From assembly GCA_011050235.1 (NCBI GenBank), contig DRGC01000073.1, positions 62,001 to 126,000 of the forward strand: a stretch of 64,000 bases of DNA, in the 5' to 3' direction. The translations under genes were made by a program, and so were the position numbers. This DNA comes from Phycisphaerae bacterium (GTDB lineage: Bacteria > Planctomycetota > Phycisphaerae > SM23-33). Shown one piece after another: positions 23,452-55,908 of the stretch; the stretch's first letter is position 1, and every line of letters starts with the position of its first letter. Under the pieces are notes generated by a model. That model was not told the DNA's origin and made no database searches. It saw only the letters and a list, made by a program, of their open reading frames with translations.

Positions 23452-23540
23452 AATGATCACAATCTCCCGTCTATGTCACTGCCTCTCTGGCAGGAGTGTT
23501 CTTGTGCCGTTGACCGGCTAAGAGCCGACCAACGGGCTTC

Positions 23541-24667: not shown

Positions 24668-24679
24668 GGCCGCCGACCT

Positions 24680-26348: not shown

Positions 26349-26473
26349 AATGAAAGAGTAACGTTGCCTCCATTGCGACCGACAACTATAGCCATCTGTT
26401 ACTACGAGAGTTATAGGACGGTCGAACTGGCACGGGATCAGCTTTCGGCCAGATGCGATCCCCTTCCTCCCTT

Positions 26474-26594
26474 GGTCAAAATGGCCGAGCCGAAACGCGA
26501 GTGCTCGCAGATTGTTCGTATAACATGCGATTTACAATTCGGTTAGGATGGGCGGTCAAAGTTTGACCAGAGGACTAAGACTGACCATCTGGTC
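26474..26594. promoter_or_regulatory. Palindromes, candidate activator (UAS) sites
   Basis: GGTCAAAGTTTGACC (26554-26568) is a perfect 7+1+7 palindrome. A half-site with a near-match partner, GGTCAAAATGGCC, lies at 26474-26486, and GACCATCTGGTC is at 26583-26594. They lie 125-250 bases upstream of the -24 element, the usual distance for enhancer sites of NtrC-type activators. Binding is inferred only. Confidence 0.45.
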
Positions 26595-26604
26595 TGCGAG
26601 TGGC

Positions 26605-30742: not shown

Positions 30743-30759
30743 GCGAGGTGTCGCATCGC

Positions 30760-38934: not shown

Positions 38935-39582
38935 ATGAGCAAGCACAGTTCAGATCAAGCCGATTCGAAGGACACGACCCGGGCTCGACCGGGCGAGCGA
39001 GGCTCCAGACAGGATTCAACTGATCCCGAGGCTTGGGTTGACGCACACGCTGATGCCCTGTTCCGATATGCCCTGCTGAAGGTACGTAACTCGGAGGCGG
39101 CCGAAGACCTGGTGCAGGAGACGTTCCTGGCAGCGATGCAGTCGCGAGAGTCGTTCCGAGGCGCCTCGGCCTTGAGAACTTGGCTCATTGGGATACTGCG
39201 ACACAAGATTGTGGATCGCCTACGCCGATCCGCTCGGCAGCGGACCATGAATGGGGATGTGGATGACAACCTTGTTGACGGTTGGTTCGACCGCAAGGGG
39301 AGATGGATCACCCGGCCCGAAAGGTGGCAGATGGACCCGCCGCGTCTCCTGGAGAACCGGGAATTCTGGCAGATCTTCCAGACCTGTCTGGAGGCGCTTC
39401 CGGAACGCATCGGGGAAGTGTTCTCCCTGCGGGTGATGACCGAAATCGATTCGGAAGAAGTGTGTAAGCTCCTGGACGTCTCCTCGACCAACCTATGCGT
39501 GATGCTGCATCGCGCGCGTGCGCGACTGCGCGCCTGCCTCGAAGCCAATTGGTTCGGGAGCAGGCCGAAGGAATCGGGCTGA
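38935..39582 (+). CDS. ECF-family RNA polymerase sigma factor
   Basis: 215 residues. Region 2: FRYALLKVRNSEAAEDLVQE with TFLAAMQSRESFRG and LRTWLIGILRHKIVDRLRR. Region 4: LPERIGEVFSLRVMTEIDSE and EVCKLLDVSSTNLCVMLHRA. The 25-residue linker is Trp-rich (DGWFDRKGRWITRPERWQ). This matches the small planctomycete/proteobacterial ECF group that is followed by a short zinc-finger anti-sigma, and such a gene overlaps here. It heads the plus-strand arsenosugar-type operon and may control it. Confidence 0.92.
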   Translation: MSKHSSDQADSKDTTRARPGERGSRQDSTDPEAWVDAHADALFRYALLKVRNSEAAEDLVQETFLAAMQSRESFRGASALRTWLIGILRHKIVDRLRRSARQRTMNGDVDDNLVDGWFDRKGRWITRPERWQMDPPRLLENREFWQIFQTCLEALPERIGEVFSLRVMTEIDSEEVCKLLDVSSTNLCVMLHRARARLRACLEANWFGSRPKESG

Positions 39583-39833
39583 TGCTCAGTTGCAGGGACA
39601 TAACTCGGCTGATCTCAGAAGGGCTCGACCGACGGTTGGGCCTCCGGCAGCGGGTAGCCTTGCGCCTTCATCTTATGATGTGCGGGGCATGTAAAGCATA
39701 CAGACGGCAGGTGATGGCCCTCAATAGGCTCATTGTCGCCCACTTCAGAAGGTTGGGACCCGCTGAGCCACATTCACTATCCGACGAGGTCCGCCGACGG
39801 ATCAAGGCGGCTCTTCGCGATTCCGCCCATTGA
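39582..39833 (+). CDS. Short zinc-finger anti-sigma factor
   Basis: 83 residues from ATG 39582, which overlaps the sigma stop in a TGATG arrangement. N-terminal LSCRDITRLISEGLDRRL and RLHLMMCGACKAYRRQV give the C...HxxxCxxC-type zinc-binding anti-sigma domain. There is no membrane helix, so it is a soluble factor of the putative zf-HC2 type. It should sequester the ECF factor in the cytosol, possibly with the zinc site as a redox or metalloid sensor. Confidence 0.82.
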   Translation: MLSCRDITRLISEGLDRRLGLRQRVALRLHLMMCGACKAYRRQVMALNRLIVAHFRRLGPAEPHSLSDEVRRRIKAALRDSAH

Positions 39834-40049
39834 TACGCTCTTGACGGACAGCAGGTCTCTGCGGCTGTCCCGCCAGAAAGACACAATTCAGTTGTAAGAT
39901 TCCGCACGTCGGTTCGACTCACCTATCGAATGTGGCCACAGGAATGAGACTGTGTGACATCACCCGAGAGCTCATCGGATTCAGACGTTTCTGGACGCCT
40001 TCCAGGTCGACGTGAAGATCAAGGACTGAACCCTTACGAGGAACAAGAA

Positions 40050-40286
40050 ATGGCGCAGACTTCTTCCCCAACCCAATGCGGCCTGGAAAGGGTCGAGACT
40101 GCGGGACCTCAACGATACGTCGAGATTGTCCGTGAGGTGTTTGCCGCATGGAGAGCCCTGATCGGGGAGGTCATTGCCGAGGCCCAGAGCCGCGGCCCGC
40201 TCCGCGATTGCCTGGACGCACAACGATGTCTGCTTCAGTCGCGGACCGGACCTGACAGACAACGGGAGAGCGAATCATGCAGATGA
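40050..40286 (+). CDS. Small protein of unknown function
   Basis: 78 residues from ATG 40050 with GAGGAA upstream. A helical middle segment (YVEIVREVFAAWRALIGEVI) looks structured. Its end overlaps the start of the peroxiredoxin gene by 10 bases. I do not recognise a family. Confidence 0.5.
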   Translation: MAQTSSPTQCGLERVETAGPQRYVEIVREVFAAWRALIGEVIAEAQSRGPLRDCLDAQRCLLQSRTGPDRQRESESCR

Positions 40287-41005
40287 TACTTTCAGCGACG
40301 CTTGGTGTAGCCGTGCTGGCAATGCTGGCCGGCTGTCCGTCGAACGAATCGCGCCAAGGCGGCGGCTTGGCGACGCAAGAGGCGGCGTCCACCCGAAACG
40401 ACACAGAGACCCAGCCGTCGGCAACCACCGATGCCCGAAAGGTGCAGCCCTTGGGCAAAGGTGACCAGGCCCCCGTGGCGATCCTTCGTCTCCCCGACGG
40501 TCAAGAGGTCGATCTGGCCACGTTGTACAATCAGAAGCCCTCTGTGCTGATCTTCTACCGTGGTGGGTGGTGCCCATACTGCAACACGCACTTGGCGCAA
40601 ATCGCCACGGCCGAGCCGGAACTGCTGGCCATGGGCTACCAGGTGTTGGCTATCAGTCCCGACCGGCCCGAGGAGCTATCCAAGACGCTCGACAAGCACC
40701 ACCTGACTTACCAGCTCCTGTCCGACAGCGACGTGGTCCTTGCTCGGGCATTCGGCCTGGTCTTTCGCGTCGATGATCCGACGCTGGAGAAGTACCGGGG
40801 CTTCGGCATCGATCTGGAGCAGGCTTCCGGCCGGGCCCATCACCTGCTGCCGGTGCCGGCGGTTTACATCGTGGACACGCAAGGCATCATTCAGTTTGCC
40901 CATTGGGACCCGGACTACAAGAAACGATTGGAGCCCGAAGCGTTGCTCAAGGCCGCCAGGGACACACAGTCGGCGGGCCAACCTTCAACCGAATCAAGAG
41001 ACTGA
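40277..41005 (+). CDS. Peroxiredoxin-like lipoprotein (AhpC/TSA family)
   Basis: 242 residues. A lipobox LAGC puts the lipid Cys at 20, so the mature protein is periplasmic or membrane attached. The thioredoxin fold has FYRGGWCPYCNTHL with C99 and C102, followed by LAISPDRPEELSKTL. This is the peroxiredoxin-like subgroup with a CxxC active site. Start ATG 40277 has GGGAG 8 bases upstream. It may protect against thiol-reactive arsenicals or peroxides. It precedes ArsM by 96 bases in the same direction. Confidence 0.85.
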   Translation: MQMILSATLGVAVLAMLAGCPSNESRQGGGLATQEAASTRNDTETQPSATTDARKVQPLGKGDQAPVAILRLPDGQEVDLATLYNQKPSVLIFYRGGWCPYCNTHLAQIATAEPELLAMGYQVLAISPDRPEELSKTLDKHHLTYQLLSDSDVVLARAFGLVFRVDDPTLEKYRGFGIDLEQASGRAHHLLPVPAVYIVDTQGIIQFAHWDPDYKKRLEPEALLKAARDTQSAGQPSTESRD

Positions 41006-41101
41006 GACTGTGAGCGAGCCAAGATGCGGCCGAAGCGAACGCTGCAACGGAGCTACGGTCTTGGATTGACAGGGCTCACGGACACTGCGTGGAGACGAAA
41101 C

Positions 41102-42301
41102 ATGGCAGAGACGAGAACTACAGAGGCCGTGCTGGCCGGTGGGAATGTCGAGGGCGAGGTGCTTCGTCGCTACAAGGCGGGAGCCACACAAGCGGAGAAG
41201 GGACTGTGTTGTCCTACCGACTATGACAGGGCGTCCCTTGACATCCTGCCGCCGGAGATCGTCGAGAAGGACTACGGTTGCGGGGACCCGTCCAAGTACG
41301 TCCGCCCCGGCGAGACGGTGGTCGATCTGGGCAGCGGGGCCGGGAAGATATGTTACATTCTGGCTCACAAGGTTGGTTCCCAGGGCCACGTCATCGGCGT
41401 GGACTTCAACGACGACATGCTATCCCTGTCTCGCAAGTACGTCGACGAGATGGGCGACAAGCTCGGCTACCGAAATGTCCGCTTCGCCAAAGGTAAGATT
41501 CAGGACCTGGCGCTAGACCTGGACAAGGCCCAGGACTGGCTGGACAGGCGCCCCATCGCCGCTGTCGAAGATCTCTACGACTTCCAGGCCGAATGCGAAC
41601 GGCTTCGCCGCGAGGATCCCTTGATCGCCGATGCCGGCGTGGACGTGATCGTCTCCAACTGTGTGCTGAACCTGGCCCGGCCAGAGGACAAGGGCACGCT
41701 GTTCGCCGAGATGCACCGCGTTCTGCGCAAGGGCGGCCGGGCTGTTATCTCGGACATCGTTTGCGACGAAGGCCCGACGCCGGAGATCAAGGCCGACCCG
41801 GAACTATGGAGCGGCTGTATCGCCGGTGCGATGCGCGAGGACGAGTTCCTGGAGATGTTCGAGCGGGCGGGCTTCTACGGCACCGAGATCATGGTCCGGC
41901 AGGACGAGCCGTGGCAGGTGATTGACGGAATCGAGTTCCGCTCGATCACCGTGCAGGCCTTCAAGGGGAAGGAAGGCCCGTGCATCGAGCGTAATCAAGC
42001 AGTCATCTACAAGGGGCCATGGAAGTGCGTCTGCGACGATGATGGCCACATGCTCCATCGCGGTCAGCGGATGGCTGTCTGCGACAAGACCTTCGGCATC
42101 ATGACCAGCCCTGCCGGTCCCTACGCCGGCCAGATCGTCGCTGTGCCCCCGCAGGACGAGGTGCCCCCTGAGCAGGCCACGCCCTTCGACTGCAAGCGGA
42201 GCGATACTCGCCATCCCCGGGAAACCAAGGGACAGGACTACGACATAACCCGGACCGCAAGCAGTGACTGCTGCAGCCTGGACAGCGAGTGCTGTGGATA
42301 A
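41102..42301 (+). CDS. arsM: ArsM-type arsenite S-adenosylmethionine methyltransferase
   Basis: 399 residues from ATG 41102, which has GGAG 7 bases upstream. The SAM-binding motif is VVDLGSGAGKICYILA (about 73-88). The arsenic-binding cysteines of ArsM are in place: C60 in DYGCGDP, C187 in SNCVLNLA and C239 in SGCIAGAM. There is also a C36-C37 pair. A C-terminal extension (about 325-399) with several more Cys, ending CCSLDSECCG, may be a metal- or arsenite-binding tail. The enzyme methylates As(III). Beside ArsS it should supply the dimethylarsenic precursor of arsenosugars. Confidence 0.92.
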   Translation: MAETRTTEAVLAGGNVEGEVLRRYKAGATQAEKGLCCPTDYDRASLDILPPEIVEKDYGCGDPSKYVRPGETVVDLGSGAGKICYILAHKVGSQGHVIGVDFNDDMLSLSRKYVDEMGDKLGYRNVRFAKGKIQDLALDLDKAQDWLDRRPIAAVEDLYDFQAECERLRREDPLIADAGVDVIVSNCVLNLARPEDKGTLFAEMHRVLRKGGRAVISDIVCDEGPTPEIKADPELWSGCIAGAMREDEFLEMFERAGFYGTEIMVRQDEPWQVIDGIEFRSITVQAFKGKEGPCIERNQAVIYKGPWKCVCDDDGHMLHRGQRMAVCDKTFGIMTSPAGPYAGQIVAVPPQDEVPPEQATPFDCKRSDTRHPRETKGQDYDITRTASSDCCSLDSECCG

Positions 42302-42311
42302 GGAGCCCCTG

Positions 42312-43460
42312 GTGGTCGGCATCACGATCGTATTGGTTGTGGCCGTGTTCTGGCTGGCCTGGAGCAACGGCGCGAACGACAACTTCAAAGGCGTTGCGAC
42401 ACTCTACGGCAGCAACACGATGGGGTTTCGGCGCGCCCTTGTGTGGGCGACAGGGGCCACGCTGCTGGGCAGCGCTTGCTCGGTGTTCTTGGCCGAGAGG
42501 CTCGTCAAGCAGTTCAGCGGGTCGGGCATTGTCCCGATCGGACAGATCGACGCGACGTGGCTGATCGCCGTCGGCGGCGCCGGGGCAATCACCATCTTTC
42601 TGGCGACGGTGCTGGGCATGCCCACCTCCACGACGCACGCCCTGACAGGCGCGCTGCTGGGCGCGGGCATCATGGCCGGGACGGGAACGGTCAACTGGAT
42701 CGCGGCGGCAAGCACGTTCGCCAAGCCGCTATTGTTGAGCCCGGTGGTGGCCGTGGTCGCCGCCGTGGTCCTGCAACTTCTCTTCCGCAGAGCGCGGCTG
42801 GCGCTGGGTGTGGACCGACAAACCTGTGTGTGCATTGGGCGCGGCGAGCCCCAGCCAGTTACCTGCCAGGCCGATGGATCGCTGGTGCTGGCGTCATCCG
42901 TGCAATCGGCCCCGCTACGGATCGACGTGGATCAGCACATCCGCTGCGTGGAGCGGTATGGCGGGCGGATCGCGGGCGTGAAGGTCCAAAGCGGGGTCGA
43001 CGCCGTCCACTATCTCAGCGGCGGCGCGGTGTGCTTCGCGCGCGCCGTTAACGACACCCCCAAGATCGCCGCGCTGCTGCTGGCCGCCGGGTGGATCACC
43101 GGCTCCCTGCCGCCGGCGGGCTGGCTGGCGCTACTGGCCGGCGCAATGGCCCTGGGAGGATGGGTCCAGTCCCGAAAGGTTGCAGAGACCATGAGCCGGA
43201 AGATCACCGCGCTGAACCCCGGGCAGGGCCTGACGGCCAACTTGGTCACCTCGGGCCTGGTGCTGGTGGCCTCGCATCTGGGCATGCCGGTCTCTACCAC
43301 GCACGTGTCCTGCGGGTCCATTTTCGGCATCGGACTGGTCAGCCGCCAGACGCGGTGGAAGACCGTCTCGCAGATCGCCGTGACCTGGCTGACCACGCTG
43401 CCACTCGGCGCCGTGCTGGGCGCCGGGTTGTATTGGGCCATCCGCACGGCCGCGAACTGA
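42312..43460 (+). CDS. Pit-family inorganic phosphate permease
   Basis: 382 residues from GTG 42312, chosen for AAGGAG 6 bases upstream; an earlier in-frame GTG at 42264 lies inside ArsM. Duplicated Pit signatures are present: LAWSNGANDNFKGVATLYG at the N terminus, the repeated MPTSTTHALTGALLGAG and MPVSTTHVSCGSIFGIG, and FARAVNDTPKIAALLL. About ten membrane helices with a soluble central loop. Pit carries metal-phosphate and also arsenate. Between ArsM and ArsS it may import arsenate or maintain phosphate balance. Confidence 0.9.
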   Translation: MVGITIVLVVAVFWLAWSNGANDNFKGVATLYGSNTMGFRRALVWATGATLLGSACSVFLAERLVKQFSGSGIVPIGQIDATWLIAVGGAGAITIFLATVLGMPTSTTHALTGALLGAGIMAGTGTVNWIAAASTFAKPLLLSPVVAVVAAVVLQLLFRRARLALGVDRQTCVCIGRGEPQPVTCQADGSLVLASSVQSAPLRIDVDQHIRCVERYGGRIAGVKVQSGVDAVHYLSGGAVCFARAVNDTPKIAALLLAAGWITGSLPPAGWLALLAGAMALGGWVQSRKVAETMSRKITALNPGQGLTANLVTSGLVLVASHLGMPVSTTHVSCGSIFGIGLVSRQTRWKTVSQIAVTWLTTLPLGAVLGAGLYWAIRTAAN

Positions 43461-43488
43461 AGCGAAAACATGGTGAGGAGAGAACCTA

Positions 43489-44433
43489 ATGAACGCGCTT
43501 GAGAAACAACTCGGCCAAGAGGGACTGCACGCCCGCGGAATCGAGACCCTCCAGGTCAGTGTCGGCCTGCGATGCAATCAGACATGCGCACATTGCCACT
43601 TGGAATGTTCACCCGCTCGCCCGGAGACAATGGACTGGGACACGATGTCTGCTGTGAAGTCGGCCGCGGTGCAAGCCGAGGCGTCGCTGGTGGATATTAC
43701 CGGCGGGTCCCCAGAACTGAACCCGCATCTGCGGCGCTTCATCGGCGAGCTGCGCGACACCGGCCTGGACGTTCAGGTGCGGACCAATCTCACGGTGCTT
43801 CGGGAGCGCGGCCAGGAAGGGATGATCGACTTCCTGCGCGATCATGCGGTGGGGCTGGTGGCTTCCATGCCCTGCTACCTGGAAGAGAACGTGAACGCCC
43901 AGCGGGGGCCGGCGGTCTACCAGCGCAGCATCGAGGTGATCCGCCGCCTCAACGAGGCCGGTTATGGCATTAAGGGCGGACTGCAACTCAACCTGGTCTA
44001 CAACCCCGCCGGAGCGTTTCTTCCTCCGGAACAGGAGGCGTTGGAGCAAGACTACCGACGCGAGTTACAAATGTGCTTCGGGATCAGTTTCAGCCGGTTG
44101 TTGACGATCGCCAACATGCCGCTGGGTCGATTCGCAAGCCAGTTGAAGGCCGAGGATCGCCAGGCTCAATACATGCGGCTGCTGGAGGAGTCATTCAATC
44201 CGGCGACCGTACCGGGCCTGATGTGCCGCCACCAGGTCAGCATCGGCTGGGACGGCACGCTGTACGACTGCGACTTCAACCTGGCCTTGAAGCTTCCGGT
44301 GAATCACAGCGCCCCCGACCATATCAGCCGGTTCGACCCGGCCCTGCTGGCCTGCCGGCGCATCGTCACCGGCCAGCACTGCCTGGGCTGCACGGCCGGA
44401 CACGGGTCGTCCTGCGGGGGCTCACTGGCGTGA
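43489..44433 (+). CDS. arsS: ArsS-type radical SAM enzyme (arsenosugar synthesis)
   Basis: 314 residues. The radical SAM cluster is C29-x3-C33-x2-C36 (RCNQTCAHCHLEC). The C-terminal Cys motif CLGCTAGHGSSCGGSL is typical of the radical SAM/Cys-rich (TIGR04167) family, whose members include ArsS. ArsS adds a 5'-deoxyadenosyl group to dimethylarsenite, the first committed step to arsenosugars. In some relatives a selenocysteine occurs in this family; here Cys codons are used. Start ATG 43489 is preceded by GAGGAGA. Confidence 0.92.
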   Translation: MNALEKQLGQEGLHARGIETLQVSVGLRCNQTCAHCHLECSPARPETMDWDTMSAVKSAAVQAEASLVDITGGSPELNPHLRRFIGELRDTGLDVQVRTNLTVLRERGQEGMIDFLRDHAVGLVASMPCYLEENVNAQRGPAVYQRSIEVIRRLNEAGYGIKGGLQLNLVYNPAGAFLPPEQEALEQDYRRELQMCFGISFSRLLTIANMPLGRFASQLKAEDRQAQYMRLLEESFNPATVPGLMCRHQVSIGWDGTLYDCDFNLALKLPVNHSAPDHISRFDPALLACRRIVTGQHCLGCTAGHGSSCGGSLA

Positions 44434-44443
44434 ACACAATCCA

Positions 44444-44470
44444 CATCCCATCGCCGAAGGCGATGGGATG
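44444..44470 (+). repeat. 12-bp perfect hairpin with GAA loop between arsS and DUF547 gene
   Basis: CATCCCATCGCC (44444-44455), loop GAA (44456-44458) and GGCGATGGGATG (44459-44470). It starts 10 bases after the arsS stop. No T-run follows, so it is not a standard terminator. It may act as an mRNA stabiliser or processing barrier. I saw no other copy in the window. Confidence 0.7.
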
Positions 44471-44487
44471 GAGAAAGGCGGTGCGAC

Positions 44488-45393: not shown

Positions 45394-45450
45394 CGAAGCC
45401 GGCCACAACAATACAGTCGTTGGTGAGCCGACACAAAGGCAGAGGCACGA

Positions 45451-46371
45451 ATGGTGAGTCGTTTCCAAGAGGATATGACTTTACAAGACGCCGTGAGACA
45501 ATGTCCGCGCGGAGCGTCTGTGCTGCGACGGTTGGGCATAGCGCCCGAGGGCACATCTACGCTAGTCGAGGCTGCTTCGAAAGAAGGCGTACCAATGGGA
45601 CTCTTGCTGGCGATGTTGAACGAGGCCGCCTCCGCGATGGCGGCCACCGATCAGTTTGACGACGATCAGTTCCAGGCCGCGTTGCAGGGGGCGATCATCG
45701 AATACATTGTGGAGCGTTACCATGGTCCGTTAAGAAGTGAATTAGATCGATTGGACGATCTGTTCAGCGGGGTGAGTGAGACCTGCCATGAAGACGAGGG
45801 CAACGTTCTGCTGGCTTTGAGGATGGTCTTCATGACGTTCACGAGGCAAATCGAAGAACACTTGGCCATCGAAGAAGAGATCCTCTTTCCGCGGCTTCAC
45901 CGCAGTAGGAGGTGCCCTGGGAGTCGAGGACCATCCACGAAAGCTTGCTGCGGGGGGGGAACACCCGTCATCGCAATTAAGGAGATGGAGCGCGAGCACG
46001 AACTGCTCGAAAGGAATTTCAATGAGATGCGTGAATTGACGTGCGATTTCACCCCATCACACAAAGCATCGGAGATAGTAACAACGCTTTATGAGAGAAT
46101 CCTCAGGCTTGAAACCGAGCTTTACGAGCACGCCAGCCTCGAAAATGACCTATTGTGGCCTGTGCATTTGGCAGATGAGGGGACGTCGTACGGTGTTTCG
46201 CCCGCAGGTACGATGACGTCATCTGCCGACGAAGAAGACAGTTTATGTCCGCGGACCAACCGGCCCTGCCAGGCGGGCCCGGCTGCGGTATGCAGCAGGT
46301 TCTGGGACTGTCTGCGAGAATCAATGGAACAACGATGGGGCAAAATGGAGGATGGGAACAGGATTGGCTGA
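45451..46371 (+). CDS. DUF542/hemerythrin-domain protein (ScdA/RIC-like)
   Basis: 306 residues. The N terminus is a ScdA-N-like (DUF542) domain (TLQDAVRQCPRGASVLRRLG). A hemerythrin HHE domain follows with histidines in YIVERYHGPL, EEHLAIEEEILFPRLH, EMEREHELLERNF and ELYEHASLENDLL. These fit a di-iron site. RIC/ScdA proteins repair FeS clusters damaged by NO or ROS. A Cys-rich insertion (RRCPGSRG...KACCGGG) sits between helices and the Cys-rich C terminus is atypical. It may protect or load the FeS cluster of ArsS. The start has AGAGG 6 bases upstream. Confidence 0.82.
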   Translation: MVSRFQEDMTLQDAVRQCPRGASVLRRLGIAPEGTSTLVEAASKEGVPMGLLLAMLNEAASAMAATDQFDDDQFQAALQGAIIEYIVERYHGPLRSELDRLDDLFSGVSETCHEDEGNVLLALRMVFMTFTRQIEEHLAIEEEILFPRLHRSRRCPGSRGPSTKACCGGGTPVIAIKEMEREHELLERNFNEMRELTCDFTPSHKASEIVTTLYERILRLETELYEHASLENDLLWPVHLADEGTSYGVSPAGTMTSSADEEDSLCPRTNRPCQAGPAAVCSRFWDCLRESMEQRWGKMEDGNRIG

Positions 46372-46422
46372 CGGAATGTACTTGTGAAGAAGGATGCACT
46401 GAACAAGTCTAGGTAGACGGAC

Positions 46423-46965: not shown

Positions 46966-46989
46966 CCACCGGCCAGAGAGAGCACGGGA

Positions 46990-47442
46990 ATGACATTGGC
47001 AGAAGACGCAGTTGAACTCCTGGAAGATGGGATGAACTGCTCCCAAGCGGTATTGATTGCCCTCGGAGAGCCGCTGGGGATCGACCGCCGCACTGCCGCG
47101 GGTGTCGCCTCGGCCTTTGGCGGCGGCATGGCGTGCACCGGTCGGACCTGCGGAGTCGTGACCGGCGGGCTGATGGTCATCGGCCTGCACTGCAACAAGG
47201 CACGGTGGTTCGCTTCCCGAAAGAGAAGCCTTGCCTATGCGTTGGGCCGCGAGTTTCTTCGACGATTCGAGGCTCAGGAAGGTTTCACCCAGTGCAGGCA
47301 GTTGCTGAAGGCTGCGGGTATCGTCGTCGACCCACAGCAGGCCATGGCCAGCAAAGTATACCGCACCCACTGTCAGAAGCTGGTGAACGATGCTGCACAG
47401 ATCCTCGGCATCCTTCTTGGAAAAATGAACGTGGGCGCCTAG
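46990..47442 (+). CDS. C_GCAxxG_C_C family protein
   Basis: 150 residues. Family pattern: NCSQAVL (C17), FGGGMACTGRTCGVVTGG (C49, C54), HCNKA, a Cys near 101 (QCRQLL) and HCQKLV near the end. These are redox-type small proteins of unknown function, often next to radical SAM or selenium/arsenic genes. It has no signal sequence. The Cys set could bind a metal or FeS centre. Confidence 0.88.
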   Translation: MTLAEDAVELLEDGMNCSQAVLIALGEPLGIDRRTAAGVASAFGGGMACTGRTCGVVTGGLMVIGLHCNKARWFASRKRSLAYALGREFLRRFEAQEGFTQCRQLLKAAGIVVDPQQAMASKVYRTHCQKLVNDAAQILGILLGKMNVGA

Positions 47443-47470
47443 CTCGCCAGCGAAATCATGGAGATACCAA

Positions 47471-48229
47471 ATGATTGAACCGCCTGATGATAGCGTCAAG
47501 AAGATCAACCGCCACTGGGGCAAGCTCATCGTGCTCGGCATCATCCTGGCGGGCCTGACGGTGGCGTCGCTGCTTCTGCCCATCAAGGACTACGTGATCG
47601 CCATGCTGGAATGGACACAGGGCCTCGGCTTCTGGGGGCCCTTCTTTATGGCCGCCTTCTACATTGTGGCCTGCGTGCTCTTGCTGCCGGGGGGAATCCT
47701 CACCCTGGCGGCGGGGTTCCTATTCGGTGCAGTGACGGGAACCATCACCGTGTCGGTGGGCAGCACGCTAGGGGCCAGTGCGGCTTTCCTCGTTGGCAGA
47801 ACGTTCGCCCGCGATTGGATTCGAAGAAAGGTAGCCGGCCGGCCGAAGTTCGACGCCATCGACCGGGCCGTCGGTGAGCAGGGCTTCAAGATTGTGCTGC
47901 TGACGCGCCTGAGCCCGATCTTTCCGTTCAACATGCTGAACTACGCCTACGGCCTGACTGGCGTGAAACTGTGGACGTATGTCCTGGCCTCGTGGATCGG
48001 CATGCTGCCAGGGACGTTGGCTTACTGCTACATCGGTTCGGGCCTTCGGTCGCTGACGGAAGTTGCCGCCGGCAAGACTGAGGGTGGCTGGATGCAGCGG
48101 GTGTTCTTCTGGGGCGGGCTCGCAGCTACCATCGTCGTTGTGATCGTCGTCACCCGAATCGCCCAGAAGGCCATGAGGCAGACTATTCAGGAAACGGACC
48201 CCTCGGATATGGAGGAGGCAAGGCCATGA
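47471..48229 (+). CDS. TVP38/TMEM64 (SNARE-associated, DedA-like) membrane protein
   Basis: 252 residues, about six helices. The family signature is LLLPGGILTLAAGFLFGAVTGT and RLSPIFPFNMLNYAYGLTGV. Members of this family are often fused to a pyridine-nucleotide disulfide oxidoreductase; here that enzyme is encoded two genes on. The function of TVP38 proteins is uncertain, with lipid or small-molecule transport proposed. The GH130-like start overlaps its stop. Confidence 0.9.
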   Translation: MIEPPDDSVKKINRHWGKLIVLGIILAGLTVASLLLPIKDYVIAMLEWTQGLGFWGPFFMAAFYIVACVLLLPGGILTLAAGFLFGAVTGTITVSVGSTLGASAAFLVGRTFARDWIRRKVAGRPKFDAIDRAVGEQGFKIVLLTRLSPIFPFNMLNYAYGLTGVKLWTYVLASWIGMLPGTLAYCYIGSGLRSLTEVAAGKTEGGWMQRVFFWGGLAATIVVVIVVTRIAQKAMRQTIQETDPSDMEEARP

Positions 48230-49167
48230 GTAAGCGTGTTACCCAGGATGTCGTGACAAGGTGGCAAGAGAACCCCATCCTCACCAGGGAGGACATTCCC
48301 TTTCCCTGCAACACCGTGTTCAACGCGGGCGCTGCAAAAGTGGGTGATGAGTACATCCTCCTGCTTCGTGTGGAGGATCTGCGCGGACACTCCGTGCTGG
48401 CCCTTGCGTGCAGCGAGGACGGCTACCATTTCACCGTGCACGATGAGCCGGTCATGGTTCCCAGTCGAGAGGGGGAATTCGGCGTCTACGAACGCAAAGG
48501 CATCGAAGATCCCAGGATCACGAGGATTGGGGACACGTACTACATCATCTACACGGCCGTCTCGGATTTCGGGGCGCGCCTGGCGTTGGCCAAGACAGAG
48601 GACTTTCGGAGCTTCGAACGGATCGCCCTGATTTCCGAACCGGAGAACAAGGACGGGGCCCTGTTTCCCCGGAAGATCGACGGCTGCTATGTTCGCCTGG
48701 ACCGGCCGATGGTCGGCAGCACCGGAAACATCTGGATCAGCTACTCGGATGACCTTGTAAGCTGGCGCGATTCCCGCGTGCTCATGACAGTGCGCGGGGA
48801 TTGCTGGGATTCATGGCGAATCGGCGCCTCCGCGCCGCCCATCGAGACCGAATACGGCTGGCTGGAAATCTACCACGGCGTCAAAGAGACATCGCACGGG
48901 CCAATCTATCGCCTTGGCGCCGCCATGCTGGACAGAGACGACCCCACAAAGATCCTCTGCCGATCGTCGATCCCGATCCTTGCCCCGCGGGAGGACTACG
49001 AGCGGACCGGCGATATCCCCAATGTCGTGTACTCCACCGGGGCGATCATGGAAGAAGACGGGGCTTTGAAAATCTACTACAGCGGCGCTGACACGTGCAT
49101 TTGCGTCGGGACGGTCCGCCTGGAAGAGCTGATGCAGTTCTGTGCAATCGGGGAGGAAGGCAAATGA
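48226..49167 (+). CDS. GH130-like glycoside phosphorylase/hydrolase
   Basis: 313 residues, a five-bladed beta-propeller type. Pattern: WQENPILTREDIPF, VFNAGAAKVGDEYILLLRVE, KGIEDPRITRIGDTYYIIYT, RPMVGSTGNIWISYSDDLV, GWLEIYHGVKE. These match GH130 (mannoside phosphorylases and hydrolases). It may release or recycle sugar-1-phosphate for arsenosugar glycan formation; the substrate is not known. The stop overlaps the next start (ATGA), so it is coupled to the flavoprotein. Confidence 0.85.
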   Translation: MSKRVTQDVVTRWQENPILTREDIPFPCNTVFNAGAAKVGDEYILLLRVEDLRGHSVLALACSEDGYHFTVHDEPVMVPSREGEFGVYERKGIEDPRITRIGDTYYIIYTAVSDFGARLALAKTEDFRSFERIALISEPENKDGALFPRKIDGCYVRLDRPMVGSTGNIWISYSDDLVSWRDSRVLMTVRGDCWDSWRIGASAPPIETEYGWLEIYHGVKETSHGPIYRLGAAMLDRDDPTKILCRSSIPILAPREDYERTGDIPNVVYSTGAIMEEDGALKIYYSGADTCICVGTVRLEELMQFCAIGEEGK

Positions 49168-50696
49168 GCAATGTGTCGCAGATATCCTTCACCGAACTCG
49201 GGCCGATGGATGAGCATAACAGGGAACTCTTGACCAACGCCCATCCCTTGGACTGGAAGAACCCCACACCCGCAGACCGTTACAACATGGTGGTCGTCGG
49301 CGCGGGCCCCGCCGGCCTGGTGACAGCCGCCGGCGTGGCGGGTCTTGGCGGCACGGTCGCTCTCGTGGAACGGTATCTCTTCGGAGGCGACTGCCTGAAC
49401 TTCGGCTGCGTGCCCAGCAAGACGTTGATTGCTGCTGCCCGTGCCGCGGCCGACGTGCGCAGGGCCGATCGATACGGCATAGAGTTAGCATTCAGCAAGG
49501 TTGACTTCGCAGCCGTCATGGAGCGTGTCCGTCGCATTCGGGGTCAGATCAGCCACCACGATGCAGTTCAGAAGTTCCAGGACATGGGCATCGATGTTTT
49601 CCTGGGCGATGCCGCATTCACCGGGCAGGACACCGTCGAGGTCGAAGGCCAAGCTCTGCGGTTTGCCCGTGCGTGCATTGCCACCGGCGCCCGCGCCGTC
49701 CGGCCGGACATCGAAGGGCTCGCCGAGGCGGGCTTTCACACCAACGAGTCGATCTTCTCGCTGACGGAATTGCCCCCTCGCCTGGCGGTACTCGGCTCAG
49801 GCCCGCTGGGCTGTGAGTTGGCCCAGGCGTTCGCCCGTTTGGGCAGCGAGGTCACGATCATCGAACGGTCCGGGCAGTTCCTGAAAAGAGAGGATCGGGA
49901 CGCCGCTGACATCGTCGGGCGGTCGTTTATGCGCGACGGCATCCACTGTGTCTTCAACAGCCAGGTCAAGCGGGTGACGGGCGGGACGGGCGGCAAGCAA
50001 CTGCTGCTCGTTTCCGATGGCAAGGAATCGTCAGTCGAAGTCGATGCCATCCTCGTTGGCTATGGCCGAGCCCCGAACGTCGATGGCCTCGGGCTGGAGG
50101 CGGCCGGCGTGGCATACGATGCCCGCCACGGCGTGAATGTTGATGACCGTCTGCGCACGACGAACAAGCGAATCTATGCGGCCGGCGACGTCTGCCTGAA
50201 GCACAAATTCACCCACACCGCTGACGCCACTGCGCGAATCGTCATCCAGAACGCCTTGTTCTGGGGGCGTAAGAAGCTCAGCGCTCTAACGATCCCCTGG
50301 TGCACCTACACCGACCCGGAGGTCGCGCACGTGGGGCTTTACGAGCACGAGGCGAAAGAGCGAGGCCTCGAGGTGGACACCTTCACCAAACCATTCAAGG
50401 ACAACGACCGAGCCGTGACCGAGGGCGAAGATGAAGGCTTTGTCCGCATCCATGTGAAGAAAGGCTCGGACCGGATCGTCGGGGCGACCATCGTGGGGCG
50501 CCACGCCGGCGAGATGATCAGTGAGTTGTCCGTCGCCATGGCCGGAAAAGTCGGGCTCAGCATGTTGGCGAACGTGATTCACCCCTACCCGACACTTAGC
50601 GAGGCGATCAAGGGCGTCGGCGACATGTACAGCCACACTCGCCTGACACCGTTGCTGAAGAAGCTGTTCGTGCGAATCCTGGCATGGCGGAGATGA
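49164..50696 (+). CDS. FAD-dependent disulfide oxidoreductase (MerA/Lpd-like)
   Basis: 510 residues from ATG 49164. The FAD fold (VVVGAGPAGLVTAAGVAGLG) is followed by redox pair C77-x4-C82 (GGDCLNFGCVPSKTL), the NAD(P) fold LAVLGSGPLGCELAQAF and the C-terminal dimer domain. It lacks the N-terminal NmerA domain and the C-terminal Cys pair of mercuric reductase, so mercury reduction is not supported. The first 40 residues are a family-specific extension. It probably uses NAD(P)H to reduce a disulfide or arsenic/thiol substrate together with TVP38. Confidence 0.88.
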   Translation: MSNVSQISFTELGPMDEHNRELLTNAHPLDWKNPTPADRYNMVVVGAGPAGLVTAAGVAGLGGTVALVERYLFGGDCLNFGCVPSKTLIAAARAAADVRRADRYGIELAFSKVDFAAVMERVRRIRGQISHHDAVQKFQDMGIDVFLGDAAFTGQDTVEVEGQALRFARACIATGARAVRPDIEGLAEAGFHTNESIFSLTELPPRLAVLGSGPLGCELAQAFARLGSEVTIIERSGQFLKREDRDAADIVGRSFMRDGIHCVFNSQVKRVTGGTGGKQLLLVSDGKESSVEVDAILVGYGRAPNVDGLGLEAAGVAYDARHGVNVDDRLRTTNKRIYAAGDVCLKHKFTHTADATARIVIQNALFWGRKKLSALTIPWCTYTDPEVAHVGLYEHEAKERGLEVDTFTKPFKDNDRAVTEGEDEGFVRIHVKKGSDRIVGATIVGRHAGEMISELSVAMAGKVGLSMLANVIHPYPTLSEAIKGVGDMYSHTRLTPLLKKLFVRILAWRR

Positions 50697-50745
50697 CCTG
50701 GGCAGATGTCGTCTTGACCGACAGCCGGGCGCACTCGACACCTGA

Positions 50746-52467
50746 ATGATATCTGCTGCAAGCCTGCGCAAGAAGCCCCGCGGCAGATTTGGCCGCAAGA
50801 AAGATCAGTCAATGACCCGTGCGGAACATATCACTCAAGAAGAGGCCTCCCCACAGGAGACGGACCTCCCCTTTGGCCACTATTGTCGCTACAAGCTTTC
50901 CACGATGCGATGTCGGATCCGCTCGCTTGGCAAGCAATCGCTACGGCTAGGTCGCTGGTTGGAGTCGGAGGTATTCCCGGCTGCAAGCAAGGCTGGGCAC
51001 GAGGTCGTTCACCTGGAGGCCCGGCCGGAAGGCGTGATTCGTCTGGAACCGAAAGAAGGCATGGACACGACGCTGGAGCTGACTGATTGTCACGAGCTCT
51101 GCGCATTTCTGGAACGGATAGCCATCCGCAGCTTGGAACTGGAGACTCGGCTGGAGAGTAACCAGATCGTGGACGTGCTCATGTTCCTGTACACCTATCG
51201 TCGGGCGATATATCCGCGTCACCACGGCAGGAAGCCGGCCACAGGCGTGGGCCAGCAACTACTCAGTGACCCCGGCGTGCATTTCTGTTGTACTCAAATA
51301 CGGTTGCGTAGCCACATGCTGATGGTCGAATACAGCTACTGCGTTACCCGGCTGAGCCTGCTTGTCCGATGGTTTGAGCGGAAGCATCTTCACTTCAGCG
51401 ATCATCGGGCTCTCTTTCACGCGGCGCCACGTTATGGGGCATTGGCGGTGGCCATGTCGCTGGCCGTCCTTCTGGCGTTCGTCCTCACCAACAGCGTGCA
51501 ACTCCTGATCGTCGCCGCGCTGGTCCAAGGGGCGGTCTTGTTTGCAGCCGTATACGTGTTCTTCCGGGGAATGGGCAGTATCGAGTACGACAACGAAGAG
51601 AAGGCCTACCGACTTGGCAGGGCCCATGCAGACCTGACGCGCCATGCGGCGCGAATTCACAATGACCTTGCATCCGCACGCACGGTCCAGCGAAAACTCC
51701 TACCCGACCCGCGGCGGATGCCTCTGGCCGAGACGCTCGAATGGATCAGTAGCTTCGCGCCGGAAACCGAGGTGGGCGGCGACTATTTCGATGCCGCCCG
51801 ATTGAGCGACGACAAGGCGGCGATGGTTTTCGCCGATGTCAGCGGCCACGGCATGGCCGCGGCGCTCATCACCGTGATCGTCAAGATGGCATTCCGGTCA
51901 TGGGTCGAGGCCGAGTGGTCCCTGAGCGATTTTGTCCGCCGTGTTAACCGAGACCTCTGCCAATTCACCCCCGACAGCAGTTTCGTCGTGCTGGTCGCAG
52001 CGATTTATGACCACGCCAATGAACGTCTGGACTTCGTCAACTGCGGACATGCCCCTGAGCCCTTCCATCTGCCGTCCGACCTGTCCCAGCCGGTGGTCGG
52101 CCTTACGCAGACCGGCTCCATGCTCCTGGGGCTGGAAGACTATATTGAGGTCCATGAGACCGCCCTGTCGCTTGCTCCCGGGGATGCCATCTTCTTGGCC
52201 ACCGACGGCCTGACCGAAGCCATGAACGATCAGAGCGAATTGTATGGTGATGATCGCCTTGTGGAATTCCTGACAACCCATCGTTCGAAGCCCGTAGCGG
52301 ACCTCGTAACCTCTCTCGTGGAGGATGTCTCCCGATTTGTGGGAAGCGCAGCACAGAGCGACGACCGCACCGTACTGGCGTTTCGCGTCCGCGGCCGGCA
52401 TGGGCAAGAGGACGTCACGAGGCATCAGACATCTCCCGCATCACCTGCTTCCGGAGACTCCGTATGA
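50746..52467 (+). CDS. SpoIIE/RsbU-type PP2C phosphatase, membrane attached
   Basis: 573 residues from ATG 50746, or 551 from 50812. The N-terminal region (about 30-220) is unrecognised. Two membrane helices lie around 230-280 (GALAVAMSLAVLLAFVL, LLIVAALVQGAVLFAAVYVF). The PP2C domain has ETEVGGDYFDA, VFADVSGHGMAAAL, ATDGLTEAMN and SDDRTVLAF. Such phosphatases act on anti-anti-sigma factors or other phosphoproteins. None of its partners (STAS or RsbW) is encoded here. It may link the pathway to envelope stress. Confidence 0.9.
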   Translation: MISAASLRKKPRGRFGRKKDQSMTRAEHITQEEASPQETDLPFGHYCRYKLSTMRCRIRSLGKQSLRLGRWLESEVFPAASKAGHEVVHLEARPEGVIRLEPKEGMDTTLELTDCHELCAFLERIAIRSLELETRLESNQIVDVLMFLYTYRRAIYPRHHGRKPATGVGQQLLSDPGVHFCCTQIRLRSHMLMVEYSYCVTRLSLLVRWFERKHLHFSDHRALFHAAPRYGALAVAMSLAVLLAFVLTNSVQLLIVAALVQGAVLFAAVYVFFRGMGSIEYDNEEKAYRLGRAHADLTRHAARIHNDLASARTVQRKLLPDPRRMPLAETLEWISSFAPETEVGGDYFDAARLSDDKAAMVFADVSGHGMAAALITVIVKMAFRSWVEAEWSLSDFVRRVNRDLCQFTPDSSFVVLVAAIYDHANERLDFVNCGHAPEPFHLPSDLSQPVVGLTQTGSMLLGLEDYIEVHETALSLAPGDAIFLATDGLTEAMNDQSELYGDDRLVEFLTTHRSKPVADLVTSLVEDVSRFVGSAAQSDDRTVLAFRVRGRHGQEDVTRHQTSPASPASGDSV

Positions 52468-53933
52468 CGCCTGAGGACTATCGTTCTTGCGGGCCCCTTG
52501 CACCGGAGACCCCGCGGGACACGGAGACTGTTCCGGGCAATTGCGTGTCGAACGGTGCGGCTGGCAGACGACTGTGGCCTTGGCTGGTCGTCGGGATGAT
52601 GTTGGTCGCGGGCATGGGGGTGTGCGTCTGGGCCAACGTCAACGACTTCGCATCCGCCAAGGTGTTGGTCTTGGCCGGCGCGGGCATGGGGGGTCTTTTC
52701 TTGTGTCTTCTCGTCCTTCGGCCGACTCATGTGTCGGGGGGCGTTTGGGCGGTAATGATCGTGGTGGCGGTGATGATGCGACTGCCATGGTTTTTCGTGC
52801 CGCCGTCCGTCAGCGGCGACTACCACCGATACCTGTGGGACGGGGCCGTGACCGCACACGGTATCAGTCCCTACGTGCACACACCCAAGGACGTGTTGGA
52901 TAATCACGTCGACGATCCGACTCTCGATAAACTCGCCCGATCAGGGCGCTTTGTATTGGAAGGAATCAATCATCCAAAGTTGCGGACAATCTATCCTCCC
53001 GTCGCTCAGGGCGCCTTTGCGCTGGCATACTGGATCACGCCGTTCAGTCTAAACGCGTGGCGGATCGTTCTGTTGGCCTTCGATATCGCCGCGGCGCTGG
53101 CGGTGCTGGGACTTCTGCGGTCGGCCGGGCTGCCCTTGTTGCTGGTGTTTGTCTACCTGTGGAATCCGCTTCTCGTAACGGAAACCTACAGCGGCGGTCA
53201 TGTAGACCTTCTGGCTGCCGCAATGGTCGTGTTGTTCGCCTGGGCGTTGACCACGAAACGGCCAATCATCGCAGGTTGCGCTCTGGCGCTGGCGATCGGC
53301 GTAAAGCTCTGGCCCGTTCTCTTGCTGCCTTTCCTGCTCCGATCGCTGTGGGGCCATTGGCGGAGGATGACCGTTACGATAGGGATCCTCGCCACGATGC
53401 TCGTTCTGATGGCCGTCCCGTTCGCCAGCGCCTTCGGTGCCGAAGCCGATAGCGGCTTGCTCACCTACGCGCGGACTTGGTCTGCGCAACCCGGCGCGTA
53501 CCTTGCCTTTGACAAGCTGGGCTTGTGGTTGCGGGGCCGCCTCTCCCTCACCATGGACAACCACTATATCGGGCGCAGCCTGATGATGCTCGTCTTGCTG
53601 TCTCTAGCTGCCTGGCTTGGCCTGCGCCGACCATCGGATGCCTCCGTCTTATGCCGACGCATGGGACTCGTGATTATGCTCATGCTTCTGTTGAGCCCGG
53701 CATTGTGGTCATGGTACTACATCGCCGTTATTCCACTCGCGGCCATCGCATCGCCGCGCCTGGGTCTGCTTCTCTGGACGGCCTTGTTGCCCCTGATCTA
53801 CCTGGAGGGCGACGTGCTTTCGGGGGAGCATCTGACCTGGTTTGTGCATCTGCTCGCCTGGCTGGTGCTGGCAGCCGAGTGGGCATGGCCGCACTTGGCC
53901 GAGCGCATGCGCAGGGAGCACACCCATGCTTGA
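52464..53933 (+). CDS. GT87-like (DUF2029) polytopic glycosyltransferase
   Basis: 489 residues, about eleven membrane helices. The luminal motif SGDYHRYLWDGAVTAHGISPY resembles the catalytic loop of polyprenol-phosphate-mannose-dependent enzymes. It has FVYLWNPLLVTETYSGGHVD and IGVKLWPVLLLPFLL, typical of DUF2029. It probably transfers a hexose from a polyprenyl donor. The start overlaps the phosphatase stop and its end overlaps the next gene by 8 bases. It likely works with the glycosyltransferase fusion that follows. Confidence 0.85.
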   Translation: MTPEDYRSCGPLAPETPRDTETVPGNCVSNGAAGRRLWPWLVVGMMLVAGMGVCVWANVNDFASAKVLVLAGAGMGGLFLCLLVLRPTHVSGGVWAVMIVVAVMMRLPWFFVPPSVSGDYHRYLWDGAVTAHGISPYVHTPKDVLDNHVDDPTLDKLARSGRFVLEGINHPKLRTIYPPVAQGAFALAYWITPFSLNAWRIVLLAFDIAAALAVLGLLRSAGLPLLLVFVYLWNPLLVTETYSGGHVDLLAAAMVVLFAWALTTKRPIIAGCALALAIGVKLWPVLLLPFLLRSLWGHWRRMTVTIGILATMLVLMAVPFASAFGAEADSGLLTYARTWSAQPGAYLAFDKLGLWLRGRLSLTMDNHYIGRSLMMLVLLSLAAWLGLRRPSDASVLCRRMGLVIMLMLLLSPALWSWYYIAVIPLAAIASPRLGLLLWTALLPLIYLEGDVLSGEHLTWFVHLLAWLVLAAEWAWPHLAERMRREHTHA

Positions 53934-55908
53934 CGGACTGACGGTCAAGGTCATCATCCCCGCTTTGGATGAGGCCGCCTCTATCGGAAATGTCCTGGCT
54001 GATGTTCCCTCTTGGGTGGACGAGGTCGTTGTCGTGGACAACGGCTCCACCGACGAAACTGCTGCCATCGCTGCGGCCGCCGGAGCTCGCGTGGTTGATG
54101 AACCGCGCCGAGGCTATGGCCAGGCGTGCCTCGCCGGCATGGCCGCCATCGACTGGTGTGACGTGGCGGTCTTCCTTGACGGCGACTACAGCGACTTCCC
54201 CAAGCAAATGGACCGCCTGGTCCGTCCCATCGCCGAAGACCGGGCCGACATGGTGCTGGGTCGGCGCATCGCCATCCACGGAGATGCCCAGGCCTTTACA
54301 CTCCCGCAGCGGTTTGGCACAGGCTTGGCTTGCCTCCTGATGCGCATCTTCTGGCGGGGACAGTACCGGGACATGGGTCCGTTCCGCGCCATCCGCTGGA
54401 ACAGCCTTCGCGCGCTGAGGATGCGGGATACGACCTACGGCTGGACTATCGAAATGCAGATCAAGGCCCTGGTGGCGGAGCTCCGGGTGCTGGAGGCACC
54501 AGTGGACTATCGCCGCCGGATCGGCGCGTCCAAGATATCCGGCACCATTCGCGGCGTCTGGGGAGCAGGTACAAAGATTCTCGGGATGATCGGCAAATGT
54601 TTGCTCTGTCCGCCAAGATTACCCAAGGGCCAATCCGAAAAGCTGATCGTCTTCAGCCGTTGGCCGACGCCCGGCAAGACCAAGACACGACTGATCCCCG
54701 CCCTGGGGCCTCTGGGCGCTGCGGAACTCCAGCGGCGAATGACCGTTCGTACGTTGGGCGCCGCACGCCAATGGGCCAGTGGGAATCAGCGAGAGGTCGA
54801 GGTCCGTCATGAAGGCGGCTCGTGGCGGCAGATGCGCCGCTGGCTGGGACCGGGGCTTGGTTACCAGCGCCAGCTGCCAGGCAGCTTAGGCCATCGCATG
54901 GCCTCGGCCCTGACGGCCGCATTTGACGCTGGCTGCCGTCGGGCTGTGTTGATTGGCACGGACAGCCCCAGCATCACACCGGCACTTCTGGATGAGGCCA
55001 TTCTCGCCTTGGACAATCATGACTTGGTCGTGGGCCCCACGTTCGACGGGGGCTACTGGCTGATCGGCATGACACGCCTGTTGCCGGTGTTTGACGGCAT
55101 TGCATGGAGCACCGAGACCGTCTTATCTGAGACTCTCGATCTGGCCACGAAGAATGGCTGGCGAGTGCACCTGCTCTCGCCAATGGCCGATATCGACCGG
55201 CCGGAGGATCTGGCGCTGACCCGTGAGTTCTTCGACCCCGACAAGCCGGTGCTCTCGGTCGTTATCCCCACGCTCAACGAAGCGAACAACATCGAGGCGA
55301 CGATTCGATCCGCCACGGCCGTCGGGGTCGAGATCATCGTCGCCGACGGGGGCAGCTCCGACAACACGCCGGAACTCGCCAGGAAACTGGGAGCGAGGGT
55401 GATTCACGGCCCTCCTGGAAGGGCGAGGCAGCAGAACGCAGGGGCGGTCGTCGCCAACAGCGAGACGCTCTTGTTCCTGCATGCCGATACGTTGCTTTCG
55501 GCTTATTGGCATCACGATGTATTCGAATCCCTGCTGGACCCTTTGGCTACCGGAGGCGGTTTCCTTTGGCGAACGGATATGGACGGCCTCTACATGCAGG
55601 CCGCACGGTTCTTCGTTCGGCTGCGCACTGTCTATGGGCAGGAACCATGGGGAGATCAGGCGATCTTCGTCCGAAGAGCGGGCTTTCACGCCGTGGGAGG
55701 CTTTCCGGATGTGCCCATCGCTGAAGACTGGAATTTTGTGCGCGCCATGCGGCAGTACGGAACACTCGTCACGATACCCAAGGATGTAATCACCTCGGCT
55801 CGACGTTGGAAGAGCATTGGCGTTACGAGAGGCTTCATCACGAACCGCCTCATCATTATTGGATGCTACATCGGCTTGCCGCGAGAATTGCTAGCCCAGC
55901 TGTACTGA
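53926..55908 (+). CDS. Three-domain glycosyltransferase fusion (GT2 + TIGR04282-like + TIGR04283-like)
   Basis: 660 residues from ATG 53926, which has GGGAG 8 bases upstream. Domain 1 (about 5-225) is a DPM1-type GT2: VIIPALDEAASIGNVL, VDNGSTDETA, LDGDYSDFP. Domain 2 (about 237-430) is DUF2064/TIGR04282-like: FSRWPTPGKTKTRLIPALG, IGTDSPSITPALLD, FDGGYWLIGM. Domain 3 (about 440-660) is TIGR04283-like GT2: LSVVIPTLNEANNIEATIR, ADGGSSDNTPELARKLGARV, LFLHADTLL. TIGR04282 and TIGR04283 are usually separate genes named for arsenosugar clusters; here they are one chain with a polyprenyl-sugar synthase-like domain. The fusion implies that the three steps belong to one pathway. Confidence 0.88.
   Translation: MLDGLTVKVIIPALDEAASIGNVLADVPSWVDEVVVVDNGSTDETAAIAAAAGARVVDEPRRGYGQACLAGMAAIDWCDVAVFLDGDYSDFPKQMDRLVRPIAEDRADMVLGRRIAIHGDAQAFTLPQRFGTGLACLLMRIFWRGQYRDMGPFRAIRWNSLRALRMRDTTYGWTIEMQIKALVAELRVLEAPVDYRRRIGASKISGTIRGVWGAGTKILGMIGKCLLCPPRLPKGQSEKLIVFSRWPTPGKTKTRLIPALGPLGAAELQRRMTVRTLGAARQWASGNQREVEVRHEGGSWRQMRRWLGPGLGYQRQLPGSLGHRMASALTAAFDAGCRRAVLIGTDSPSITPALLDEAILALDNHDLVVGPTFDGGYWLIGMTRLLPVFDGIAWSTETVLSETLDLATKNGWRVHLLSPMADIDRPEDLALTREFFDPDKPVLSVVIPTLNEANNIEATIRSATAVGVEIIVADGGSSDNTPELARKLGARVIHGPPGRARQQNAGAVVANSETLLFLHADTLLSAYWHHDVFESLLDPLATGGGFLWRTDMDGLYMQAARFFVRLRTVYGQEPWGDQAIFVRRAGFHAVGGFPDVPIAEDWNFVRAMRQYGTLVTIPKDVITSARRWKSIGVTRGFITNRLIIIGCYIGLPRELLAQLY

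Follow-up and report, generated by a model that had tools for sequence, protein, structure and literature searches.

The genome of a Phycisphaerae bacterium (contig DRGC01000073.1) carries a run of 14 co-directional genes that most likely forms a single operon of ~15.6 kb. In this Phycisphaerae-type planctomycete, the operon probably encodes an extended pathway for the biosynthesis and maturation of an arsenosugar. The run occupies positions 40277-55908 of the window, which is the entire 64,000-nucleotide stretch of DNA that was analysed and which belongs to a 4.01-Mb genome. At its core are genes for an ArsM-like arsenite methyltransferase and an ArsS radical S-adenosylmethionine (SAM) protein, accompanied by genes for a Pit permease, several glycosyltransferase domains, membrane proteins and redox proteins (Table 1). 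Its assignment as an extended arsenosugar cluster, as judged from sequence, is well supported: ArsS, the TIGR04282 and TIGR04283 domains and the MerA-like flavoprotein (NF004991) each score above curated cut-offs, and conserved gene order, gene fusions, genome-wide co-occurrence and a duplicated module tie most non-core genes to arsS. The product could plausibly be glycosylated or lipid-linked, and the kinds of genes present (an AglJ/DPMS-like GT2, a GT87 and a TVP38/VTT protein) would fit additional sugar transfer at the membrane.

Gene content and extent of the likely operon

A sequence-only reading of this DNA had described a tightly spaced operon of about 17 kb (38935-55908). All genes named in that reading are encoded on the + strand and exceed a Pfam or NCBIfam cut-off, with cautions for the RIC-like protein, ArsM and the rhodanese. 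The claimed spacing was likewise borne out, as the intergenic gaps from arsM through the fused glycosyltransferase gene range from -8 to +57 base pairs (bp), with overlaps at the TVP38/GH130, GH130/MerA-like, SpoIIE/GT87 and GT87/glycosyltransferase fusion junctions. These distances were calculated with corrected gene starts for ArsM (41102), Pit (42312), the MerA-like protein (49164) and the glycosyltransferase fusion (53926). The arsM and arsS genes reside in the same operon-like run and have only the Pit gene between them, with gaps of 10 and 28 bp.

The first three genes of the 17-kb range, left unnamed previously, encode an extracytoplasmic function (ECF) sigma factor, a zf-HC2 anti-sigma factor and a SelL-related AhpC/TSA protein. 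Because a 443-bp gap sets the sigma/anti-sigma pair apart from the AhpC/SelL-related gene and all that follows, we place the likely operon start at 40277. An open reading frame (ORF) of 110 amino acids (39954-40286, + strand) that lacks a Pfam match lies within this gap and overlaps the AhpC start. The guanine-plus-cytosine fraction of the cluster (0.614) is like that of its left flank (0.617). A scan for sigma-70 promoters returned 5 candidates where 4.6 were expected, and a terminator scan returned 18 where 11.4 were expected (standard deviation 3.3), located on both strands and almost all within genes.

Table 1. Genes of the arsS locus in the window. Scores are in bits; a value after 'vs' is the cut-off.
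Feature	Position	Strand	Evidence
ECF sigma factor (TIGR02943 family)	38935..39582	+	198 vs 162
zf-HC2 anti-sigma factor, overlaps sigma gene	39582..39833	+	PF13490; NF052368 73 vs 50; ATG at 39582
SelL-related AhpC/TSA thiol-redox protein, likely first gene of the operon	40277..41005	+	PF00578; NF040769 below cut-off
ArsM-like arsenite SAM methyltransferase	41102..42301	+	PF13847 93; NF040538 318 vs 500
Pit/PHO4-type permease	42312..43460	+	PF01384 199
ArsS radical SAM protein	43489..44433	+	TIGR04167 400 vs 300; DUF3641 (PF12345) 174; CX3CX2C
DUF547 protein, one N-terminal hydrophobic helix	44488..45393	+	PF04784
RIC/hemerythrin-like di-iron protein	45451..46371	+	PF01814 (hemerythrin domain) passes
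Rhodanese-domain protein, N-terminal hydrophobic segment	46423..46965	+	PF00581 passes; NF045521 does not
C_GCAxxG_C_C redox protein	46990..47442	+	TIGR01909 77 vs 47
TVP38/VTT-domain membrane protein	47471..48229	+	PF09335 114
GH130 beta-mannoside phosphorylase-like enzyme, arsS-associated subgroup	48226..49167	+	PF04041 199 vs 26
MerA-like pyridine-nucleotide disulfide oxidoreductase	49164..50696	+	NF004991 793 vs 620
SpoIIE-type PP2C phosphatase	50746..52467	+	PF07228
GT87-like membrane glycosyltransferase	52464..53933	+	PF09594 45 vs 25
Fusion of GT2 (AglJ/DPMS/GpgS-like), TIGR04282 nucleotidyltransferase-like and TIGR04283 GT2 domains	53926..55908	+	TIGR04282 199 vs 134; TIGR04283 250 vs 182

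Recurrence of the gene set beside arsS

The same reading had proposed a synteny survey, and we used profiles of the window proteins to search 138 arsS loci, mostly from Planctomycetota, and 20 control regions, each of 20 kb, taken from this same group. The loci came from 19 named genomes and from members of the phylum and class, and they included the second arsS of the window's genome. Two pairs of loci (L011/L175 and L014/L157) are apparently the same contigs drawn from two collections, leaving ~136 distinct loci, and ArsS itself was lost at the profile threshold in L109. Non-core genes recur beside arsS and are found in none of the controls. Homologs of ArsM (38 loci), DUF547 (43), TVP38 (43), the MerA-like protein (42), TIGR04282 (49), TIGR04283 (59), GT87 (24) and GT2 (30) lie mostly on the arsS strand. 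Fewer loci carry zf-HC2 (9), AhpC/SelL (8), GH130 (5) or rhodanese (3) homologs, again with 0 of 20 controls in each case. Homologs of the Pit permease were found in 16 of the 138 loci and in 0 of 20 controls, always on the arsS strand.

Both gene order and gene fusions are conserved. The order ArsM-Pit-ArsS-(TVP38/DUF547)-MerA-like-GT87-GT2-TIGR04282-TIGR04283 recurs wholly or largely in, for example, L128, L153, L174 and L182. Fusions join TVP38 to DUF547 (23 cases), TVP38 to the MerA-like protein (4) and TIGR04283 to ArsS (1), and the glycosyltransferase domains are combined as GT2+TIGR04282+TIGR04283 (11) or as GT87+GT2+TIGR04282+TIGR04283 (4).

A sigma/zf-HC2 pair lies close to arsS in nine other loci, and no common ECF promoter motif was found upstream of the sigma genes and operon heads. 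The profile made from the window's SpoIIE protein returned no matches in the 138 loci; a looser search revealed SpoIIE-like ORFs inside the L017 and L153 clusters, and SpoIIE is rare beside arsS. Control of the operon would fall to the ECF sigma pair, perhaps together with SpoIIE.

Genome-wide co-occurrence and a duplicated module

Associations with arsS extend to the level of whole genomes. Among 397 genomes of the class, 87 carry arsS and 41 carry a close relative of the MerA-like protein (E <= 1e-165); 37 of these 41 also carry arsS, where 9 would be expected (p ~1.5e-23), and 30 of the 43 places at which the relative is encoded are within ~15 kb of arsS. Homologs of GH130 with at least 60% identity occur at eight full-length places, five of them inside arsS clusters, whereas just one (46% identical) of the ~100 less similar homologs is near arsS; the co-occurrence of GH130 and arsS in genomes has a p value of ~6e-4. 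The window GH130 is 66-68% identical to four GH130 proteins from other arsS clusters, and the ArsS proteins that partner these enzymes fall in three clearly distinct regions of the ArsS tree (the window; L163/L180/L189; L193). Because the partners come from three separate lineages, GH130 appears to have been recruited repeatedly to arsS clusters. On the same tree, the character 'MerA-like and TVP38 beside arsS' requires no fewer than 11 changes on branches with good support, and therefore assembly or loss of the cluster has occurred on many occasions.

The window's genome also contains a second module, located on another contig (C40) that begins close to it, in which TVP38 (50% identical), GH130 (73%), MerA-like (58%) and TIGR04282+TIGR04283 (45%) counterparts keep their order. 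This module is without ArsM and DUF547, since each occurs in a single copy in the genome. The link between GH130 and arsS rests on the genome-wide identity test and on this paralogous module, because the comparison with control regions is weak.

A predicted route to the product

ArsM methylates arsenite, and the window protein, by homology to characterised enzymes, would convert arsenite to dimethylarsenic; its cysteine residues lie in CCP, GCGD, SNC and SGC motifs, as identified by inspection of the translation without a reference alignment. ArsS, whose radical SAM motif reads CNQTCAHC in the translation, would then attach the 5'-deoxyadenosyl group of SAM to yield dimethylarsinoyl-adenosine, again as judged from characterised homologs. 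Adenosylation of methylarsenic by ArsS is attributed to Cheng 2021 as cited in PMC12159101. Loss of adenine, probably through an MTAP-like phosphorylase encoded elsewhere, would produce arsenoribose 1-phosphate. An MTAP homolog is indeed present elsewhere in the window's genome, and an MTAP-like nucleoside phosphorylase adjoins arsS in seven loci (six from Poribacteria, plus L130); the poribacterial enzyme is a candidate for adenine removal. In the six poribacterial loci (L003-L007 and L010), arsS is arranged head to head with the phosphorylase gene and is itself followed by a gene for an RNase Z-like protein of the metallo-beta-lactamase fold.

The fused glycosyltransferase could carry the intermediate further. 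Its predicted structure is modelled with a pLDDT of 93. For the TIGR04282 portion, a solved relative, 3cgx, carries the annotation nucleotide-diphospho-sugar transferase, profile comparison points to the guanylyltransferases 6bwg and 7p97, and 7p97 is also matched by fold (TM-score 0.78 by target). This portion retains invariant, likely nucleoside triphosphate (NTP)-site residues (K15 T16 R17, D108 and D136-G-G). A CofC-like nucleotidyltransferase fold with likely NTP-site residues suggests that this domain activates rather than transfers. Because of these profile and fold matches and invariant residues, we propose that TIGR04282 may activate arsenoribose 1-phosphate with a nucleotide, after which the TIGR04283 GT2 domain would transfer the activated arsenoribose to an acceptor. 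The first GT2 domain of the fusion is similar to AglJ, to dolichyl-phosphate hexose transferases and to GpgS. GT2 enzymes of the AglJ/DPMS kind and GT87 enzymes typically use polyprenyl-phosphate sugars, and this synthase-like GT2 and the GT87 protein may add or transfer more sugar at the membrane.

Roles for the remaining proteins are suggested by similar reasoning. TVP38 and DUF547 may handle a lipid-linked form; TVP38 proteins (COG0398) have been discussed as lipid scramblases (PMC10127716), and a fold search of the PDB with a confident DUF547 model returned no match. GH130 may build or trim a mannosyl-type glycoside: it aligns to 5b0p and 1vkd across the conserved Asp motif of the family, and it misses the beta-1,2-mannobiose phosphorylase equivalog NF052550 (241 of 450 bits). 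The MerA-like flavoprotein, AhpC, rhodanese, RIC-like and C_GCAxxG proteins would provide thiol redox chemistry and shield ArsS. Of these, the first meets NF004991, a model for a flavin adenine dinucleotide-containing oxidoreductase, but misses the mercury(II) reductase model TIGR02053 (393 of 454 bits), and the RIC-like protein misses the iron-sulfur repair equivalog TIGR03652 (116 of 205 bits).

Weighing the alternatives

Several observations weigh against an extended arsenosugar operon. ArsM is a clear arsenite methyltransferase homolog, but it falls short of every equivalog cut-off, including NF008823 (182 of 263 bits) and NF038099 (119 of 400 bits) in addition to NF040538. The control set of 20 regions is small, and enrichment against it is weak for Pit (Fisher p 0.10) and for GH130 (Fisher p 0.50). 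Sequence does not determine which substrates GH130, GT87 and GT2 use. Pairing of TVP38 with a MerA-like protein fits a general fusion and is not arsenic-specific in general, as the commonest fusion partner of COG0398/TVP38 proteins is a pyridine-nucleotide disulfide oxidoreductase (PMC10127716). The genome's second arsS (L052; genome G000, contig C51, 26606-27508) is without arsM and stands alone beside genes for Gfo/Idh-type oxidoreductases and a URO-D-like gene. Finally, the profile search of the other surveyed arsS loci found no RIC or C_GCAxxG homologs. The description of the locus as 'extended arsenosugar-type' therefore stands for the cluster and most non-core genes but not for these two, which are peculiar to the window locus and for which a redox accessory role is more likely than one as enzymes of the pathway.

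It is possible, though somewhat doubtful, that the locus makes a plain, known arsenosugar such as glycerol arsenoriboside, with TIGR04282 and TIGR04283 transferring glycerol or a sugar, with GT2, GT87, GH130, TVP38 and DUF547 merely transporting or recycling known products or the lipid carrier, and with no new compound formed. NCBIfam labels both TIGR families as arsenosugar glycosyltransferases, and the occurrence of TIGR04283 without GT87 or GT2 in many arsS loci implies that a minimal pathway is independent of both. However, the four loci in which GT87 and an extra GT2 share one chain with TIGR04282 and TIGR04283 argue for a common substrate. At the other extreme, we entertain quite tentatively, and with considerable doubt, an undescribed arsenic glycolipid of Planctomycetota, in which TIGR04282-activated arsenoribose would be transferred by TIGR04283, extended at the membrane by GT2 and GT87 from polyprenyl-phosphate sugars, translocated by TVP38/DUF547, and built or recycled as a mannosyl-type arsenoglycoside by a dedicated GH130.

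An ECF sigma/anti-sigma pair heads the locus, the RIC, rhodanese, C_GCAxxG and AhpC genes are common stress or redox genes, and MerR-, MerT- and TlpA-like genes occur in some related loci. These features could reflect a stress-response regulon in which the sigma factor drives arsenic detoxification along with genes for envelope glycosylation and thiol redox that are unrelated and share no pathway. We consider this unlikely, as the fusions, the genome-wide co-occurrence and the duplicated TVP38-GH130-MerA-TIGR04282/04283 module point to one pathway, and the failure to find a shared ECF promoter motif also speaks against it. Very improbable is that ArsS adenosylates another element or a thiol, such that the product is no arsenic sugar. 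The family was originally built on selenocysteine versions and the TIGR04167 model name retains 'SeCys', and ~100 of the 138 arsS loci are without a homolog of the window ArsM within ~10 kb; yet the window ArsM gene lies two genes upstream of arsS with the Pit permease between, and in the 38 loci where ArsM is beside ArsS the two are always on the same strand. An extended arsenosugar operon thus remains our preferred interpretation.

Other features of the window

Convergent with the cluster is a gene for a 1408-amino-acid protein (56465-60691, - strand) that is similar to the NACHT antiphage protein EruA, although its 257 bits against NCBIfam NF058535 fall short of the cut-off of 1000. On the other side, the - strand region at 20809-34668 encodes a multihaem cytochrome c-like protein, a Fer4_5 protein, a sensor histidine kinase and a 1302-amino-acid ORF with DUF255, DsbD and thioredoxin domains. 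The sole Rfam match in the window is a transfer RNA (14875-14959), which is directly followed by genes for an integrase of the phage type (14935-16473) and for a large serine recombinase (16470-18629); the interval 14875-18629 is possibly an element integrated at the transfer RNA gene.

Comparison with known systems

The premise that simple products mark the end of known arsenosugar pathways was too strong. Arsenolipids are known from cyanobacteria (Xue 2014, cited in PMC12159101) and arsenosugar phospholipids from algae (PMC7345539), and NCBIfam ties TIGR04282 and TIGR04283 to arsenosugars. Our literature search, which missed most subscription journals, found no gene assignments for the steps of arsenosugar or arsenolipid synthesis after ArsS, and no relevant paper on TIGR04282, TIGR04283 or DUF3641. 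The locus and its relatives offer ordered, fusion-supported candidates for these late steps (TIGR04282, TIGR04283, GT2, GT87, TVP38, DUF547, MerA-like and GH130), which become testable through a gene set that recurs beside arsS. They also provide a concrete context for DUF547 and for the TVP38/oxidoreductase pair. Moreover, arsS is common among Planctomycetota, being present in 132 of the 392 genomes sampled; for this phylum, our search returned no studies on arsenosugars.

The bisenarsan (bsn) and arsinothricin clusters are, like the window locus, bacterial gene clusters for complex organoarsenicals; however, bsn is without a SAM-dependent enzyme, the arsinothricin cluster uses arsQML, and a glycosyltransferase set of the window type is described for neither (PMC12159101, PMC8552651). 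The DedA/TVP38-oxidoreductase fusions of COG0398 (PMC10127716) are paralleled by near neighbours in the window and by fused genes in four arsS loci, whereas TVP38 is here also fused to DUF547 (23 arsS loci) and linked to arsS. For GH130, the best solved relative is the beta-1,2-mannobiose phosphorylase Lin0857 (5b0p), with which it shares the aligned Asp motif but from which it differs in scoring below the equivalog cut-off and in belonging to an arsS-associated subgroup. Both window domains exceed the cut-offs of the NCBIfam 'arsenosugar biosynthesis glycosyltransferase' families TIGR04282 and TIGR04283, but they are fused together and to an AglJ/DPMS-like GT2, they follow a GT87, and the TIGR04282 portion is guanylyltransferase-like. 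Lastly, the cyanobacterial arsenosugar pathway employs the same two core enzymes, ArsM and ArsS, whereas in the window this core is set within a 14-gene run that includes GT2, GT87, TIGR04282/04283, TVP38, DUF547, GH130 and a MerA-like flavoprotein.

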